DNA from: Candidatus Poribacteria bacterium
Lineage (GTDB): Bacteria > Poribacteria > WGA-4E > PCPOR2b
NCBI GenBank assembly: GCA_003635265.1
Contig: PYIZ01000043.1
Location: 1-64,000, forward strand
Direction: 5' to 3'
DNA: 64,000 nt
The notes beneath the pieces are model-generated. The model had not been told where the DNA came from, ran no database searches, and worked only from the letters and a program-made list of their open reading frames with translations. This document shows positions 31,938 to 38,753 of the stretch, one piece after another (position 1 is the first letter of the stretch; each line of letters opens with the position of its first letter). The position numbers were made by a program, and so were the translations under genes.

Positions 31938-32006
31938 TTAGATTAAGTAGTCTTACACGGTTTACCGAAATGTCATTGCACAAAAATGTTACCAAATGGA
32001 GGTACA

Positions 32007-33041
32007 ATGAAGAGATATTTTCTACGCGGCATTTTGCCTTTTGTGTGTTTATTGTTGAGTAACCCCACCGCTTTGTGGGGAGATGCGGGCAAGATTAGTG
32101 GCTACTTCTTTGGCGATTATTACTACGTGTTGAAATCCCATAACACTGAACTTGAGGAACGGAATGGATTCCAGTATCGGCGCGTCTACTTCGATTACGA
32201 CAGGAATTTGTCGGACGCATTTTCCACAAAGTTTCGGTTCGAGATGAATGGCCCAGCATTTCCCACAGAGCGCAAGAAAACCGAGCCATTTCTCAAAAAC
32301 GGCTATCTGAGATGGAAGAAACCCGAATGGCGGACGAATGTTTATGTGGGCTTAACCGGTAACCCAACTTGGAAGAATGTTGAAAGGGTCTGGGGCTATC
32401 GCTCCGTTGCAAAATCGCTGCTTCACATGCACAAAATGGGCAACGGCTCTGATTTTGGTATAGCCCTACAAGGTGATGCCGACAAATCAAAGAAAGTCAG
32501 CTATCACCTGATATTCGCAAACGGTACGAGCACAAGCGGAGAAATTGATAGCAATAAGAAGATCGCTTTTTCGCTTGCAGCTAGGCCCCTTACAGGTTTT
32601 ATCGTTGAAGGATATGCCGATTTTGAGAATGCGGTGGATCGGGGCAGATGGTACACATTACAAGGTTTGCTCGGCTATCAAAGTGAACAATTTCGGGTCG
32701 GCGTTCAACTTGCCAATCAGACGCGGGAGCAGGAAGGCAAGGACGACCTTAACATTTTAGCGACCTCGATGTTCAGCGCGGTGCAATTGCTCGAAAAGAA
32801 GCTATGGGCTTTTGCTCGGTTTGATCGCTTGTTCGATCCAAGCCCCGCTCCGAACAGCGGTTATATCCATTTTGATGACACAGCAGCGCCGAATATGATC
32901 GTTGCCGGACTGGATTGGACACCATTCGAGGCATTTCACATCATGCCCAATCTTGTCTATGTCTTTTACGATGAACCGGATAAAGGCGCCAAATCTGATG
33001 CAACGATTATGCCGCGTGTGACGGCATTCTTTAGGTTCTAG
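32007..33041 (+). CDS. Predicted outer-membrane porin, first gene of the phosphate operon
   Basis: The product of 344 residues has a signal peptide (MKRYFLRGILPFVCLLLS, cleavage near ALWGDA), begins its mature part with GKISGYFFGDYYYVLKSH and ends in Phe (MPRVTAFFRF), as outer-membrane barrels do. It could admit phosphate or phosphate esters, by analogy with the OprO/OprP type, but sequence similarity to those is not obvious. The ATG at 32007 follows GGAGG. It is directly behind the Pho-box-like promoter and ahead of phoU-pst. Confidence 0.75.
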   Translation: MKRYFLRGILPFVCLLLSNPTALWGDAGKISGYFFGDYYYVLKSHNTELEERNGFQYRRVYFDYDRNLSDAFSTKFRFEMNGPAFPTERKKTEPFLKNGYLRWKKPEWRTNVYVGLTGNPTWKNVERVWGYRSVAKSLLHMHKMGNGSDFGIALQGDADKSKKVSYHLIFANGTSTSGEIDSNKKIAFSLAARPLTGFIVEGYADFENAVDRGRWYTLQGLLGYQSEQFRVGVQLANQTREQEGKDDLNILATSMFSAVQLLEKKLWAFARFDRLFDPSPAPNSGYIHFDDTAAPNMIVAGLDWTPFEAFHIMPNLVYVFYDEPDKGAKSDATIMPRVTAFFRF

Positions 33042-33133
33042 CAATGGTTGTTTTATTCTATTTGTCCCTCAGATGATGCACTGCCATGTATCATGACAAG
33101 CGCTGGAATCTGACAAAATTGGAGGGGACACGT

Positions 33134-34261
33134 ATGCAATCTCACTTAGAAGAAAACATGCAGCAGGACATGGATCTAATCCGCAGCAATGTAATCGAGA
33201 TGGGCAAATTAGTTGAGCAAGCGTTAGAGACCTGTCTGGGTGCGATTGAGCATAATGATCGGCAGTCGGCTTATGTTGTGATCTTAAGGGACCGGCATAT
33301 CGATGAGTTAGAGGAGACGCTAGAATCACTTTGCCAGAGGTTCCTGATTAAACATCTGCCCGTCGCGACTCAAATGCGTTTTGTTTATTCGGTCATCAAA
33401 ATCAACACCGAATTGGAGCGTGTCGGTGATTATGCGAAAGCGATGGCTCGGCGATTTTTGACTGTCAGCGACCTGGGGGCACAAGCCTCCCATCCCAAGC
33501 TCATCGACATTGCCAACCTTGCAATTCCGTTCCTCCGCAACGCTTTGGACGCCTTCAGTGAAGGCGATGCTGAATTGGCAAAGGCAACGAGGGAAAGGGA
33601 AAAAGAACGGGCGATAGACAACCTGCGCTACGAAATTCATAGTGACTTAATCCAATTGCATAGCAATGGCGAATTGCCCTCAGAGGCACTGGTGCCACTG
33701 GTGACGATTGTCAGTTGCTTAGAGCGTGTAGCGAATCAGGCAAGCAATATCTGCGAAGAGGTTTTGTATATGTGCACCGGTGAAGATCTGAGGCATGACT
33801 ACCAGCAGGTGTTGCGCATACTTTTCGTCGCCGAGCACGATGCGTGCCGAGGACAGATGGCAGTCGGTATCGGCAATGCACTCGAATCACATAGGATACG
33901 GTTCAGCAGCGCTGGCGTGGCGTCCCAACCGCTGGATCGAAAGACCGTGCAATTCATGACGGAACAAGGGATTGACATCTCTGGTCAGACATCCAAATAT
34001 TTGAGCCAGATTTTAGATCTCAAAGATTACGCAATCATTGTATCGCTCTCTGAAGAAGCGGAAAGATCCATCCCGTCGTTGCCGTCGAGACCGGTGCGTA
34101 TTAGTTGGGAAGTGCCGGATCCATCAAAGCTTGAAGGAGCTGAAGCGGAACTTCAAGCCGCATACCAAAACACATTTCAATTTTTAGACACGCACATCCG
34201 AGAATTGGTTCAAGCAATTCTCGGTGATGATATTGAGAAGGAAAAGGAAACTGATGTTTAA
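33134..34261 (+). CDS. phoU: PhoU fused to an inactive arsenate-reductase-like domain
   Basis: The product of 375 residues has PhoU (about 1-215) with both three-helix repeats and the metal-binding motifs (NTELERVGDYA, 91-101; CLERVANQASNICEE, about 195-209). A domain of the ArsC/low-molecular-weight phosphatase fold follows (about 227-375: SSAGVASQPLDRKTVQFM, GIDISGQTSKYLSQI, WEVPDPSKLEGAEAE). The phosphate-binding loop that should be CxxxxxR reads AEHDACR (233-239): the catalytic Cys is Ala, while the Arg is kept. The second redox Cys is also gone. It may bind phosphate without catalysis. The ATG at 33134 follows GGAGGGG. Confidence 0.85.
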   Translation: MQSHLEENMQQDMDLIRSNVIEMGKLVEQALETCLGAIEHNDRQSAYVVILRDRHIDELEETLESLCQRFLIKHLPVATQMRFVYSVIKINTELERVGDYAKAMARRFLTVSDLGAQASHPKLIDIANLAIPFLRNALDAFSEGDAELAKATREREKERAIDNLRYEIHSDLIQLHSNGELPSEALVPLVTIVSCLERVANQASNICEEVLYMCTGEDLRHDYQQVLRILFVAEHDACRGQMAVGIGNALESHRIRFSSAGVASQPLDRKTVQFMTEQGIDISGQTSKYLSQILDLKDYAIIVSLSEEAERSIPSLPSRPVRISWEVPDPSKLEGAEAELQAAYQNTFQFLDTHIRELVQAILGDDIEKEKETDV

Positions 34262-35138
34262 TAAAGTGTTGTGCGCTATCGTTGCGGTAGCGTTCTGTCT
34301 ATTTTCAAATGGTTGTACAAAGAAAGATGAGACTAGTGAGAAGTTCGTGATTCAGAACGCGGGTTCTGATACGATGGTCAATCTCGCACAGGCGTGGGCA
34401 GAGGCGTATGCTACCGTCGAATCCAATGTGTCCCTTGAAGTTTCCGGCGGTGGTTCGGGAACCGGCATCGCTGCGTTGGTTAGCGGCACCGTAGACATCG
34501 CGAATTGTAGCCGTCAAATGACCCCGGCGGAAACTGAACGGGTGACGGAGAGTACCGGCGAGGCGCCGAAAGAGTTCATCGTTGGGTATGATGCGCTCGC
34601 TGTTTACGTTCACAAGGACAACCCACTGGCTGAAGTCTCCATAGAGCAACTCGCTAGCATCTACGGAGAAGATGGAGACATAACTGAATGGTCTCAACTT
34701 GGGATCGATAACAGCGAGTGCGCTAATGACGAGATTATTCGGGTAAGCCGACAATCGAATTCTGGGACATTCGTTTATTTCCGTTCAGCAGTTCTTGGCA
34801 AGAATCGCGACTATAAACTCGGCTCAAGAGATCTACACGGTTCTAAGGATGTTGTTGAACTTGTTGCACATACACCGTGTGCAATCGGTTATAGCGGTAT
34901 GGGGTACGCCACAGAAGAGGTGAAGATGCTCAAAATTGCAAAAACTGCTGGTGATATCGCCTATGGTCCCACCGCCCAAGGTGTGCTTGATGGTACATAT
35001 CCGATAGCAAGACCCTTGTATATGTATTCGCTCGGAACGCCAGAACCGCAGGAACAGGCTTACCTAGATTGGATCTTCTCGCCCACAGGACGGGGGATTG
35101 TTGAGAAAACAGGCTATGTGCCCGTCGGACAGAAGTGA
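34254..35138 (+). CDS. pstS: Phosphate-binding lipoprotein PstS
   Basis: The product of 294 residues has a signal peptide ending in the lipobox FSNGC and the phosphate-binding features of the PstS family: NAGSDTMVNLAQAWAEAY, VSGGGSGTGIAALVSGTVDI, SRQSNSGTFVYFR. The start overlaps the phoU stop by 8 bases with AGGAAAAGGAAA upstream, so translation is coupled. It delivers periplasmic phosphate to PstCA. Confidence 0.95.
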   Translation: MFNKVLCAIVAVAFCLFSNGCTKKDETSEKFVIQNAGSDTMVNLAQAWAEAYATVESNVSLEVSGGGSGTGIAALVSGTVDIANCSRQMTPAETERVTESTGEAPKEFIVGYDALAVYVHKDNPLAEVSIEQLASIYGEDGDITEWSQLGIDNSECANDEIIRVSRQSNSGTFVYFRSAVLGKNRDYKLGSRDLHGSKDVVELVAHTPCAIGYSGMGYATEEVKMLKIAKTAGDIAYGPTAQGVLDGTYPIARPLYMYSLGTPEPQEQAYLDWIFSPTGRGIVEKTGYVPVGQK

Positions 35139-35157
35139 GCCTGGATTCCCATTAATT

Positions 35158-36066
35158 ATGCGAACAATCGTGAATGTTTTTCACCAACTGGGACGTTGGT
35201 GTGAGCCAGTTATTGAAGTAATTATTCGCCTGTGCGGTATCAGCGCAATTATCTTCGTCTTTGGCATATTCTTTTTCGTTTTTCGGGAAGGGATGGGGTT
35301 TTTCTTTGGCGGCTTGGACATCGTTGAATTTCTCACAAGCCCCGAATGGTATCCCACCTCTGTGAGTAATAAACGTTACGGCGTCTTAGCATTGATCGCC
35401 GGTACGTTTAGCGTGACAGCCTTAGCGATGATTATCGCTGTGCCGTTTGGGCTTGGGGCAGCTATTTTCGTATCTGAATTTTGCGGACCAAAACTGAAGG
35501 AGACTCTCAAAATCGTCATCGAGTTACTCGCGGCGATTCCCTCCGTTGTGTGGGGTTTCATCGGCTTAACGGTGATGAACGCACTGATTATCGAACTGTT
35601 CAACGTGCCGATCGGTTTAACAATGCTAAACGGTGGCATCATTCTGGCGTTGATGAGCGTCCCCATCATCGTCTCTATCGGTGAAGACGCGCTCAAAGCA
35701 GTTCCGGATTCGTATCGAGAAGCGGCTGAAGCACTCGGGGCAACACGATGGCAAGTGGTTTATCGTGTGTTGCTGCCTACAGCGAAGAATGGGCTGCTTG
35801 CAGCGGTATTACTGGGTGTTGGTCGCGCCGTGGGTGAAACTATGGCGGTGCTGATGACAACAGGCCACGCGGTAAACATCCCAAATAGTCCTTTCGACTC
35901 CGTCCGCACACTGACCGCCACGATCGCAGCCGAGCTGGGTGAGGCAGCGGTGGGAAGTGATCACTATCGTGTGTTATTTATCATAGGTGTTTTATTATTT
36001 ACAATTACATTTGTCGTAAACTTTGTCACTGACCTTGTGATTAAAGGTATCCGCGAAAAGGCGTAG
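35158..36066 (+). CDS. pstC: Phosphate ABC transporter permease PstC
   Basis: The product of about 302 residues has six predicted transmembrane helices and the permease EAA-type loop (YREAAEALGATRWQVVYRVLLP). AIPSVVWGFIGL and RAVGETMAVLMTTGHA are typical of PstC. The ribosome site at 35158 is weak. The gene lies 19 bases after pstS. Confidence 0.95.
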   Translation: MRTIVNVFHQLGRWCEPVIEVIIRLCGISAIIFVFGIFFFVFREGMGFFFGGLDIVEFLTSPEWYPTSVSNKRYGVLALIAGTFSVTALAMIIAVPFGLGAAIFVSEFCGPKLKETLKIVIELLAAIPSVVWGFIGLTVMNALIIELFNVPIGLTMLNGGIILALMSVPIIVSIGEDALKAVPDSYREAAEALGATRWQVVYRVLLPTAKNGLLAAVLLGVGRAVGETMAVLMTTGHAVNIPNSPFDSVRTLTATIAAELGEAAVGSDHYRVLFIIGVLLFTITFVVNFVTDLVIKGIREKA

Positions 36067-36085: not shown

Positions 36086-37027
36086 ATGGCTACAGATATA
36101 AATTCCTCCCCCACCTCTCCAGAAATCGTCGCTCCCCAATTGATGTTCACCGCAACCGATCAGAGTCGTAAAAAACAACTGATGGAGAATATCGCTCGCG
36201 GTATCTTCTTCGTGATGACGCTGTTGATGATCTTGCCGCTTGTCCTCATCGTTGTCTATCTATTTGTCAAGGCGGCACCAATCCTGTCCCTAGAGTTTTT
36301 CTTCACGAATCCTGCACAGGGGATGAGAGCCGGCGGTATATGGGCACCGCTGCTTGGAACGATTTATATCGTGATAATTTCGCTGCTCGTTTCCGCACCG
36401 ATTGGTGTGTTGGCAGCAGTATATCTGAACGAATATGCCCGTGAAAGCTGGTTCACCCGAATAATCAACCTTGCAGTGGTCAATCTCGCTGGCGTGCCGA
36501 GTATCGTTCACGCGCTTTTTGGCGTGGGTGCCTTTGTATATTTTGCAAGGATGGGACGTTCCGTTCTAGCCGCCTCGCTCACATTGGCGATCATGACGCT
36601 GCCGGTTATCATTGCAAGCACGAAGGAGGCACTCGGTGCTGTTCCGATGGCGTTCCGGGAAGCGTGTTGGAATACGGGGGCGACACGATGGCAAACGATT
36701 CGTGGTATCGTCCTGCCAAATTCGATCAGCGGTATATTGACCGGAGTAATTTTACAGGTGTCACGGGCGGCAGGCGAGACTGCGCCCATTATGTTTACCG
36801 GAGCAGTATTTTATAAGGCAATCTCTGAAGGGGATGTTCTCGCCTACGGTCTGCTCGATCGGTTTATGGCACTATCAATGCACCTGTATCAACTTTCGAC
36901 GCAAGTGCCGGGGGTTCCCGAAGCCTTGGAGTACGGCACAGCTGTCGTGCTTTTGGGCGCTGTATTGATGGTGAACGCGCTGGCGATTGTGCTGCGTGTG
37001 TACCTGCGATCTCGAAAGCGGTGGTAG
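36086..37027 (+). CDS. pstA: Phosphate ABC transporter permease PstA
   Basis: The product of 313 residues has six predicted helices and the loop FREACWNTGATRWQTIRGIVLP. AGVPSIVHALFGVGAFVYF and RAAGETAPIMFTGAVF are typical of PstA. An extra N-terminal cytoplasmic stretch of about 40 polar residues precedes helix 1. It follows pstC by 19 bases. Confidence 0.95.
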   Translation: MATDINSSPTSPEIVAPQLMFTATDQSRKKQLMENIARGIFFVMTLLMILPLVLIVVYLFVKAAPILSLEFFFTNPAQGMRAGGIWAPLLGTIYIVIISLLVSAPIGVLAAVYLNEYARESWFTRIINLAVVNLAGVPSIVHALFGVGAFVYFARMGRSVLAASLTLAIMTLPVIIASTKEALGAVPMAFREACWNTGATRWQTIRGIVLPNSISGILTGVILQVSRAAGETAPIMFTGAVFYKAISEGDVLAYGLLDRFMALSMHLYQLSTQVPGVPEALEYGTAVVLLGAVLMVNALAIVLRVYLRSRKRW

Positions 37028-37064: not shown

Positions 37065-37168
37065 CCCCGACTTGTCGGGACGGGCGGGCAACGACAGTAA
37101 ATCCATAAGTTTGTAGCAGGATGATTTATCGCCCGTGATAACGCGCAATGAATTGCGCTACTACAAAC
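37065..37168. repeat. Repeat-filled gap between pstA and the first pstB
   Basis: The gap contains CCCGAC-TT-GTCGGG (37066-37079), a perfect inner palindrome GCGCAAT-ga-ATTGCGC (37143-37158), and flanking GTTTGTAG (37109-37116) and CTACAAAC (37161-37168) as an inverted pair. Together the last three would fold into one 60-base structure like a small palindromic mobile repeat inside the operon. Confidence 0.6.
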
Positions 37169-37206: not shown

Positions 37207-37980
37207 TTGGCACTGATATCTAACTCTACAAAGAAAATTGAAATCGCCGATCTCACAGTCCGATACGGAGAGATGGAAGCACTCAAGGGAATTTCTTTCG
37301 ATGTATATGAGAATGAAATACTTGGAGTTATCGGTCCGGCGCAATCTGGCAAAACAACGCTGTTGAAAACTATCAACCGTACGATTGAACTGGAGCCAAG
37401 TGCACAGGTCAGCGGTTTGGTGAAAATCGACGGCACGGATGTGAAAAGCGTCAAAAACGTCAACCAACTGCGCCGACGAATTGGGATGGTTTTCCCGCTG
37501 CCGGTCGGTTTGCCGTTGTCGATCTACGATAATGTTGCTTTCGCACCTCGGACTGCGGGCATTCACAATCGAAGTGAGTTGGACGAAATTGTCGAACGTT
37601 GTCTACAACAGGCAGCACTTTGGGATGAGGTTAAAGACCGACTCAATAGTCTCGGTACAAAGCTGTCGGGGGGACAGCAGCAGCGCTTGACCATTGCTCG
37701 TGCGCTCTCACACCAACCTGAAATCCTCTGTCTCGACGAATTTTCGATTGCCGTCGATCCGGTGACGACAATGCGAATTGAGGATATCCTCAAAGAATTA
37801 CAATCGCAAATCACCATTATCCTTGTCACCAATCTGGTTCAACAAGCGCGTCGTTTGGCAAATCGCACCGCTTTTATATTCGAGAGCGAGCTAATCGAAA
37901 TCGACGACAACGATGTCATTTTCTCAGACTCACCGGCGAACAGACTAACCTACGACTATGTGAATGGAAATTTTGGATGA
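37207..37980 (+). CDS. pstB: PstB-like ATPase 1, signature intact but Q-loop and H-loop lost
   Basis: The product of about 257 residues (numbered from TTG 37207) is a phosphate ATPase with Walker A GPAQSGKT (43-50), intact signature LSGGQQQR (153-160) and Walker B ILCLDE (173-178, then Phe instead of Pro). The Q-loop Gln is Pro (MVFPLPVG, 97) and the switch His is Asn (LVTNLVQQ, 209). The start is uncertain: the frame is open further upstream, but that DNA is repeat sequence. It overlaps the second pstB by 4 bases. It would pair with that protein to form one complete ATP site. Confidence 0.85.
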   Translation: MALISNSTKKIEIADLTVRYGEMEALKGISFDVYENEILGVIGPAQSGKTTLLKTINRTIELEPSAQVSGLVKIDGTDVKSVKNVNQLRRRIGMVFPLPVGLPLSIYDNVAFAPRTAGIHNRSELDEIVERCLQQAALWDEVKDRLNSLGTKLSGGQQQRLTIARALSHQPEILCLDEFSIAVDPVTTMRIEDILKELQSQITIILVTNLVQQARRLANRTAFIFESELIEIDDNDVIFSDSPANRLTYDYVNGNFG

Positions 37981-38753
37981 GCGCAGACAAAAGACATAGC
38001 ATCGAAACCCGTCAACTTAATCTGTGGTATGGTAACTTTCAGGCACTCATCAATGTGAGTGTGAAGATTATTGACGGTATGATAACCGGGCTTATTGGTC
38101 CCTCTGGATGTGGCAAAACCACATTGCTGCGCTGTTTCAACCGCGTGAATGAACGGTACGGCAACGTCACGACGACCGGGGAGGTTGAAATTCTCGGTAA
38201 AAACATCTACGATGAAGATGTTTCACTACCGGAACTTCGCAAAAACGTCGGTATGGTATTTCAGCGTCCGAATCCCTTACCAATCTCGGTTTACGAGAAT
38301 ATTATTTTCGGTCTGCGTGTCCATTCCGAAACTCGCATACGGAAAAAATCGGAAACTGACGAAATCGTCGAAGCGGCGTTAAGGGAGGTCTTCCTGTGGG
38401 ACGATTTGAAAGACCAACTGAAGGTAAGGGCAACCACCCTACAGCTTGAACAGCAGCAAAAGTTGTGCATAGCCCGGCTGCTGCCGCTGAAACCGCGGGT
38501 GATTTTGATGGATGAACCGTGTTCTGCCCTTGACGCCAAAGGGACACGAGCGGTTGAAGAATTGATGTTGGAACTCGCGGGACACTACACCATTCTAATT
38601 GTCACACACAACATGGCGCAGGCACGCCGTGTGAGCGATGAATGTATCTTCATGCTGCTCGGTGAGATTATCGAGCACAGCCGCACTGAAGATCTGTTCC
38701 TTACGCCCCAGAACGAAAAAACGGCGGACTATATCGAAGGTCGATACGGATAA
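37977..38753 (+). CDS. pstB: PstB-like ATPase 2, signature lost
   Basis: The product of 258 residues has Walker A GPSGCGKTT (41-49), Q-loop Gln96 (VGMVFQRPNPLPIS), Walker B VILMDEPCSALD (175-186) and switch His211 (IVTHNMAQARRVS). The ABC signature, LSGGQQQR in PstB, reads LQLEQQQK (155-162). Alone, a homodimer would have no proper signature at either ATP site. The ATG overlaps the TGA of the first pstB (ATGA), so production is coupled one to one. Ends the phosphate operon; the next gene is convergent 5 bases away. Confidence 0.9.
   Translation: MSADKRHSIETRQLNLWYGNFQALINVSVKIIDGMITGLIGPSGCGKTTLLRCFNRVNERYGNVTTTGEVEILGKNIYDEDVSLPELRKNVGMVFQRPNPLPISVYENIIFGLRVHSETRIRKKSETDEIVEAALREVFLWDDLKDQLKVRATTLQLEQQQKLCIARLLPLKPRVILMDEPCSALDAKGTRAVEELMLELAGHYTILIVTHNMAQARRVSDECIFMLLGEIIEHSRTEDLFLTPQNEKTADYIEGRYG

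Follow-up and report, generated by a model that had tools for sequence, protein, structure and literature searches.

Complementary motif losses in two adjacent PstB ATPases of a poribacterium point to an asymmetric variant of the Pst phosphate importer

In the phosphate importer PstSCAB of Escherichia coli, the ATPase PstB works as a homodimer. Tandem arrangements with two adjacent pstB genes per pst operon are found in Firmicutes (pstB1/pstB2 in Enterococcus faecalis, PstBA/PstBB in Bacillus subtilis). Both E. faecalis chains have canonical motifs, and according to the experimental study of these tandem genes, no work on how much each paralogue of a tandem pstB pair contributes had been published before (PMC12096839). 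The B. subtilis proteins have been modelled as the two nucleotide-binding domains (NBDs) of one transporter (PMC11466899). The pst operon analyzed here comes from Candidatus Poribacteria bacterium (GenBank assembly GCA_003635265.1, contig PYIZ01000043.1, positions 1 to 64,000 of the forward strand; this whole stretch of 64,000 nucleotides is called the window). It resembles E. coli PstSCAB (PDB 9k3x, 9k3s) in operon composition, in PstS, PstC and PstA families scoring above their cut-offs, and in the PstB fold. Where E. coli has one canonical PstB, however, the window encodes two ATPases with complementary losses, PstB1 and PstB2, and the coupling helix of PstA is altered. Judged by their motifs, the two proteins very probably form an obligate heterodimer under PstC and PstA, giving a phosphate importer in which one ATP site is canonical and the other degenerate.

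Motif columns were set by aligning PstB1 with PstB2 and both with the PstB chain of PDB 9k3x (titled as E. coli PstSCAB); all positions are given in Table 1. PstB1 has Pro97 and Asn209 in place of the Q-loop Gln and the switch His and keeps LSGGQ, and PstB2 keeps Gln96 and His211 and has LQLEQ as its signature. These residue claims had been made in an earlier note, written from the sequence alone, and all of them hold in the alignment; the overlap of the two genes that it reported is also confirmed. A complete canonical motif set in one chain, as a homodimer would need, is present in neither protein. The losses are complementary, and by the motif alignment exactly one complete composite site would be left in a heterodimer. 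AlphaFold single-chain models had mean predicted local distance difference test (pLDDT) scores of 90.4 (PstB1) and 92.4 (PstB2), and the nearest fold was E. coli PstB for both (9k3s/9k3x for PstB1). By these models, neither protein is a decayed fold.

Close relatives were searched in 58 genomes, comprising the window's own genome and 57 others. Both ATPases were found in 51 of them (the window, five genomes of the same genus and 45 of the same order), with identities to the window within the genus of 88-97% for PstB1 and 92-97% for PstB2. In all 51 pair genomes, the Q-loop Gln of PstB1 is replaced by Pro and the switch His by Asn, with LSGGQQQRL intact, and PstB2 retains Gln and His and carries the signature LQLEQQQKL. 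Canonical motifs in the pairs of close relatives had been named in the earlier note as a result that would refute its reading; the opposite was found, and the pattern is invariant in these genomes and in other phyla. G006, G009 and G012, three same-family or same-order relatives with a single PstB, are fully canonical, and four of the 58 genomes searched gave no match at E <= 1e-50. In a phylum sample of 84 genomes, the PstB2 type occurred in 65 and only canonical PstB in eight, and 11 gave no match at E <= 1e-75. Complete adjacent pairs were present in 13 of the 14 further pair genomes of this sample, and the last (G076) had a PstB2 fragment at a contig end.

The ratios of nonsynonymous to synonymous substitution rates (dN/dS) against the five same-genus genomes were 0.033-0.095 for PstB1, 0.033-0.064 for PstB2, 0.038-0.086 for PstA and 0.021-0.043 for PstC; the comparison with the more distant locus L074 was saturated and gave no dS. 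By match coordinates, the ATGA overlap is shared by four genomes of the genus (G001, G003, G004, G005), and pstB1 and pstB2 are separated by ~0.1 kb in G027 and by ~1.4 kb in G033. Among the coordinates compared, the overlap is thus confined to the genus, and the suggestion that it fits a fixed 1:1 ratio carries little weight.

The search was extended to other phyla by scanning named genome contigs with PstB2 and reading the best 80 loci. Eleven of these had a PstB2 with a degenerate signature, and a PstB1 type without Gln and His lay directly before it in all 10 that had upstream DNA; the eleventh, from Elusimicrobiota, had none. The 10 pairs belong to Poribacteria (L123, 78% identity), Holophagales, Binatia, Accumulibacter, Acidobacteria, Ignavibacteriae, WOR-1, a 'Deltaproteobacterium' (labelled Myxococcota in the tree), a planctomycete and an unclassified bacterium. 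The remaining 69 loci, among them tandem pairs in Ammoniphilus and Companilactobacillus, had canonical PstB. Phylum samples were read at the top 30 loci each and hence do not give frequencies per phylum: pairs were present at 29/30 loci in Planctomycetota, 30/30 in Acidobacteriota and 22/30 in Pseudomonadota, the rest being canonical. Behind these samples stood matches in 38 of 294 (E <= 1e-114), 53 of 247 and 67 of 349 genomes, respectively. Searches with a PstB1 profile gave pairs at 27 of 30 loci in Planctomycetota, the other three being cut by contig ends, and at 12 of 20 loci in an Ignavibacteriota/Bacteroidota sample. In Bacillota, where 179 of 249 genomes matched, none of the 12 best PstB1-profile matches read was a pair, and all were canonical. 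Phylum labels of contigs from metagenome-assembled genomes may include binning errors.

The possibility that the window holds a Firmicute-type tandem pair was rejected: both chains are canonical at the tandem loci L146 and L149, unlike PstB1 and PstB2 of the window. Separately, one pair of the Ignavibacteriota/Bacteroidota sample (L384, genome G1235) is 72-73% identical to that of the window and has the signature LLLEQ; its presence in a genome of another phylum would reflect either a recent transfer or a misbinned contig.

Pooling gave 161 distinct adjacent pairs outside the window, after duplicate loci had been dropped by identical sequence (62 from Poribacteria, 30 from Planctomycetota, 28 from Acidobacteriota, 21 from Pseudomonadota, 11 from Ignavibacteriota/Bacteroidota and nine from the named scan). 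The PstB1 and PstB2 types were assigned partly by the motif residues, and the following counts are to that extent circular: in 161/161 pairs, PstB1 has the Q-loop Gln replaced (Pro 133, Ala 25, Ser 3) and the switch His changed to Asn, with [LI]SGGQ and the Walker B DE kept, and PstB2 keeps Gln, His and DE and has an acidic residue at the second signature Gly (Glu 158, Asp 3). The Walker A Lys is present in both proteins of all pairs, except in one PstB1 where that stretch is unreadable. The pooled count omits rows that are typed like PstB1 and have no SGGQ, which represent a third Poribacterial paralogue.

Since the types were called partly by motif residues, the informative facts are the rarity of partial losses, the B1-B2 order and the near-absence of lone halves. 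Beside 109 distinct canonical sequences, partial losses were seen only in the third Poribacterial paralogue and in one divergent Acidobacteriota gene (at L303); the one other odd row of the pooled set is a fragment from the end of a contig. The two types lie next to each other, B1 before B2. Seven rows are unpaired: five of them come from contig ends, and the other two belong to one genome, G029, whose halves are on separate contigs; a lone half was found in no genome except at contig ends, G029 holding both halves. In G029, the 4.2 kb after PstB1 (L101) contain neither PstB2 nor any open reading frame (ORF) similar to other pst loci, and PstB2 (L100) lies near the end of another contig, which is explained either by rearrangement or by an assembly fault. 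Taken together, the complementary pattern is real and widespread; it is also conserved and subject to purifying selection.

Some pair loci carry additional components. In one family of Poribacterial clusters (f3; e.g. L078:6104-8442, L082:1989-4340), pstB1-pstB2 is followed by a further PstA-like permease, a degenerate third PstB and PhoU, giving three ATPases and three permeases per cluster. In this third PstB, the switch His is Asn in 44/44, the third signature residue is altered and the Q-loop residue is variable, Gln often being lost. The gap between pstA and pstB1 in this family is ~0.7 to 2.4 kb (e.g. L079:3792-4541, L082:5968-8401), and an ORF located within it at L101:3148-3984 has similar ORFs in 43 other loci. 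The Acidobacteriota locus L303 (600-1484) has a third, strongly divergent PstB-like ATPase after the pair, with Thr in the Q-loop, the signature LTTSM and Asn at the switch.

The coupling helices of the permeases were compared with the ATPase types. The EAA motif of PstA is W-type (mostly REACW) in 128 pairs, all with Pro in the PstB1 Q-loop, and V-type in 24 pairs, all with Ala or Ser; one of the remaining pairs has another motif (L370) and eight are unreadable. Canonical PstA neighbours have small residues at both positions (88/88 distinct). The coupling motif of PstC is normal in the window (REAAEALG) and in 102/102 paired-locus rows, duplicates included. In exporters, the Q-loop engages an intracellular loop of the membrane domains (PMC7756269). 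Because of this contact, and because only the PstA motif changes with PstB1, the docking partner of PstA is probably PstB1 and that of PstC PstB2. The covarying PstA helix provides a testable rule for assigning each permease to its ATPase.

In the proposed heterodimer, site I would be built from Walker A/B, the Q-loop Gln and the switch His of PstB2 together with LSGGQ of PstB1, and as a canonical site would hydrolyse ATP. Site II would consist of Walker A/B of PstB1, without Gln and His, and the acidic PstB2 signature. This degenerate site may bind nucleotide through the intact PstB1 Walker A, but with three contacts to the ATP gamma-phosphate lost or reversed, it would not be expected to complete a normal cycle. 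All three motifs concerned (Q-loop, switch and signature) are described in the literature as contacting the gamma-phosphate. Because PstB1 retains the Walker B Glu, site II seems to be disabled through the loss of these contacts and not through the loss of the catalytic base. A homodimer of either PstB1 or PstB2 would have two defective sites, and both proteins would therefore be needed; one ATP would presumably be hydrolysed per cycle. We infer heterodimer formation, single-site hydrolysis and the docking order from these sequence features. The heterodimer had been proposed in the earlier note, and it gains support from the invariance of the complementary motifs in relatives, with the argument from ATGA and the analogy to exporters only being corrected. 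A more far-reaching idea, which we hold to be possible though doubtful, is that the system might belong to a widespread class of phosphate importers, so far undescribed, that uses about one ATP for each phosphate at a single catalytic site, employs the gamma-phosphate-blind second site as a switch for the nucleotide state (e.g. ADP/ATP or PhoU state), and places PstA on the switch half and PstC on the motor half.

Several points weigh against the heterodimer with a single working site. Walker A, Walker B and the catalytic Glu are kept in both proteins, and some ATP turnover at site II is possible. Both ATPases score below the TIGR00972 cut-off for PstB. Unless it is an assembly fault, the split in G029 shows that adjacency is not absolute. 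The lockstep of PstA and PstB1 follows two clades, so the 152 concordant cases cannot be counted as independent, and L370 is an exception. Motifs can also mislead: in E. coli DppBCDF, motif completeness and nucleotide binding need not agree, and DppD, which has functional-looking motifs, bound no ATP analogue without DppA (PMC12136057). The adjacent canonical PstB proteins of E. faecalis are non-equivalent, and an excess of PstB2 is sufficient (PMC12096839); therefore, tandem pstB genes alone are no proof of a heterodimer. As PstB2 in excess replaces PstB1 there, the genetics suggest for that canonical pair the kind of roles that separate homodimers, or one working homodimer with the other protein as accessory or regulator, would imply here. 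In the present pair, however, each homodimer would carry two defective sites, and the losses are complementary; among pst loci, only the third Poribacterial paralogue was found to show them singly. Some ABC proteins can stay active with a non-canonical signature; still, separate homodimers, or a single working one, appear quite unlikely.

The complex could instead be mainly a phosphate sensor for PhoU signalling, its degenerate site being a nucleotide- or PhoU-responsive switch and not part of a pump. A PhoU match does lie near the pair in the window and in six of the 10 other-phylum loci viewed (L126, L127, L129, L130, L137, L156), and seven of nine other-phylum pair genomes (G086, G087, G090-G094) have a further PstB match above the family cut-off that could do bulk uptake, with motifs read in G091 only. 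The pair is nevertheless accompanied by a full PstS-PstC-PstA set. Moreover, the same-genus genome G001, a single contig with an estimated completeness of 98%, contains the pair and gave no further match at E <= 1e-50, and no other PstB match was found in G085 and G089 (E <= 1e-65; completeness unstated), so the pair would have to import phosphate in these genomes unless a transporter of another kind does; we consider a sensor role unlikely. Hydrolysis at both composite sites, with substitutions that merely tune the kinetics, would agree with the intact Walker B Asp-Glu and the readable Walker A Lys of both proteins throughout the 161 pairs. It is very unlikely, given that Q-loop Gln, switch His and signature Gly are all missing from site II, which has an acid near the gamma-phosphate. 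The degenerate site of Pdr5 carries a comparable set of changes (PMC7756269), and that of CFTR holds ATP unhydrolysed (PMC5626490). Recent decay, pseudogenes or a sequencing error in one genome would account for broken motifs and for nothing further, and this explanation is practically ruled out by the 161 further invariant pairs and by dN/dS of 0.03-0.10.

The origin of the two types was addressed with a tree of 79 PstB proteins, in which the B1-type and the B2-type each form one clade across phyla and the Firmicutes-type tandem rows L146 and L149 fall outside both. With 59 motif columns removed, clade support was 100/97 for the B1-type (20 rows) and 97/93 for the B2-type (21 rows). A sister relation of the two, that is, one duplication, was neither shown nor rejected (p-AU, from the approximately unbiased test, 0.549). 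Whole operons accompany the two types: PstS, PstC and PstA of the pair loci in Holophagales, Binatia and Accumulibacter are 54-64% identical to those of the window, and the same proteins in three canonical-PstB genomes of the same family or order are 24-40% identical. The operon has probably been transferred as a whole between phyla.

The gene order in the window is phoU-pstS-pstC-pstA-pstB1-pstB2, adjacent and on one strand (Table 1). PhoU, PstS, PstC and PstA all exceed curated NCBI family cut-offs, so that the gene set of a Pst-type importer is present, and their family membership points to phosphate as the substrate of PstSCAB1B2. Both ATPases combine the PstB fold with the pst operon context. 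TIGR00972 is the best family for each although its equivalog cut-off is missed, and the third-ranked match to it in the window's own genome, after these two, scores 230.4 bits. The listed TTG start of PstB1 is uncertain: the open frame extends back to a GTG at 37135. The low-molecular-weight phosphatase (LMWP)/arsenate-reductase (ArsC)-like domain fused to PhoU has Ala (VAEHDACRG) at what we take, from the LMWP motif, to be the position of the nucleophile Cys, in 6/6 aligned genus members; it would be a conserved pseudo-phosphatase on PhoU, perhaps one that senses phosphate or an anion. At the Accumulibacter locus L126 (1076-2179), the PhoU match covers residues 19-354.

Table 1. Features of the pst operon in the window
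Feature	Position	Strand	Basis and remarks
ORF without Pfam or NCBIfam match	31986-33041	+	listed before the PhoU fusion
PhoU fused to low-molecular-weight phosphatase/arsenate-reductase-like domain	33086..34261	+	TIGR02135 148.2 bits (cut-off 130.25), LMWPc 40.2 bits
PstS, phosphate-binding protein	34224..35138	+	TIGR02136 227.9 bits (cut-off 206.6); listed start GTG, exact start uncertain
PstC permease	35098..36066	+	TIGR02138 285.9 bits (cut-off 196.45); listed start TTG, exact start uncertain
PstA permease	36086..37027	+	TIGR00974 258.5 bits (cut-off 193.45)
PstA coupling-helix (EAA) motif REACWNTG	36656..36679	+	altered in step with PstB1
PstB1, ABC ATPase, 257 aa	37207..37980	+	best family TIGR00972, 278.3 bits, below cut-off 343.2
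PstB1 Walker A GPAQSGKTT, intact	37333..37359	+	motif alignment
PstB1 Pro97 at Q-loop Gln position	37495..37497	+	alignment; Gln also absent in 161/161 other pairs
PstB1 signature LSGGQ, residues 153-157, intact	37663..37677	+	[LI]SGGQ in 161/161 other pairs
PstB1 Walker B ILCLDE, catalytic Glu retained	37723..37740	+	DE in 161/161 other pairs
PstB1 Asn209 at switch His position	37831..37833	+	Asn in 161/161 other pairs
ATGA overlap, pstB1 stop/pstB2 start	37977..37980	+	sequence
PstB2, ABC ATPase, 258 aa	37977..38753	+	best family TIGR00972, 325.3 bits, below cut-off 343.2
PstB2 Walker A GPSGCGKTT, intact	38097..38123	+	motif alignment
PstB2 Q-loop Gln96	38262..38264	+	alignment
PstB2 signature LQLEQ, residues 155-159; Glu at second Gly of LSGGQ	38439..38453	+	acidic in 161/161 other pairs
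PstB2 Walker B VILMDE, intact	38499..38516	+	motif alignment
PstB2 switch His211	38607..38609	+	alignment

If the heterodimer holds, this poribacterium and many distantly related bacteria would power phosphate uptake with two ATPases that build one complete ATP site only together. The system touches on two old questions, namely how many ATPs are used per substrate in ABC importers and why one degenerate site persists in many ABC proteins, a pattern whose functional origin is called 'still enigmatic' in a review (PMC7756269). One transporter family now offers a matched set of single canonical, canonical tandem and complementary degenerate PstB. The first and the last occur together in the WOR-1 locus L130 (103-6421), where a canonical PstB and PhoU lie directly ahead of a full PstSCAB1B2-PhoU set, a natural side-by-side control. 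Because the two halves lie in separate genes, each ATP site can be altered alone. No description of a complementary degenerate PstB was found in the open-access literature searched, most subscription journals lying outside it.

The heterodimeric or full-length ABC proteins TM287/288, BmrCD, TAP, CFTR and Pdr5 likewise have one consensus and one degenerate composite site, but they have exporter or channel folds, whereas the system described here is an importer with a binding protein. In CFTR, position 551 corresponds to the second LSGGQ Gly and belongs to the catalytic site; the acid of the variant G551D thus stands in the catalytic site, that of PstB2 in the degenerate one. This disease variant does not open or opens poorly (PMC7013518). 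The closest published signature met is LNVEQ in the degenerate site of yeast Pdr5 (NBD2), which resembles LQLEQ of PstB2 (PMC7756269); the likeness is taken as convergence. The degenerate-site Walker B Glu is often, though not universally, changed in exporters and is the second most frequent degenerate-site change in human proteins (PMC7756269), whereas PstB1 keeps it in 161/161 pairs. Among importers, RbsA and NupO each have one apparently degenerate ATP site; unlike the present pair, they are single fused polypeptides of another importer class that have lost, among other features, the second Walker A and, in the case of NupO, also Walker B (PMC11466899). The earlier note named some heterodimeric exporters as the known case of a design with one degenerate site; the design is not restricted to exporters, as RbsA and NupO indicate, and PstB1 departs from the usual exporter pattern in its Walker B Glu. 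Against this background, PstB1 and PstB2 are best read as parts of an asymmetric variant of the Pst importer.

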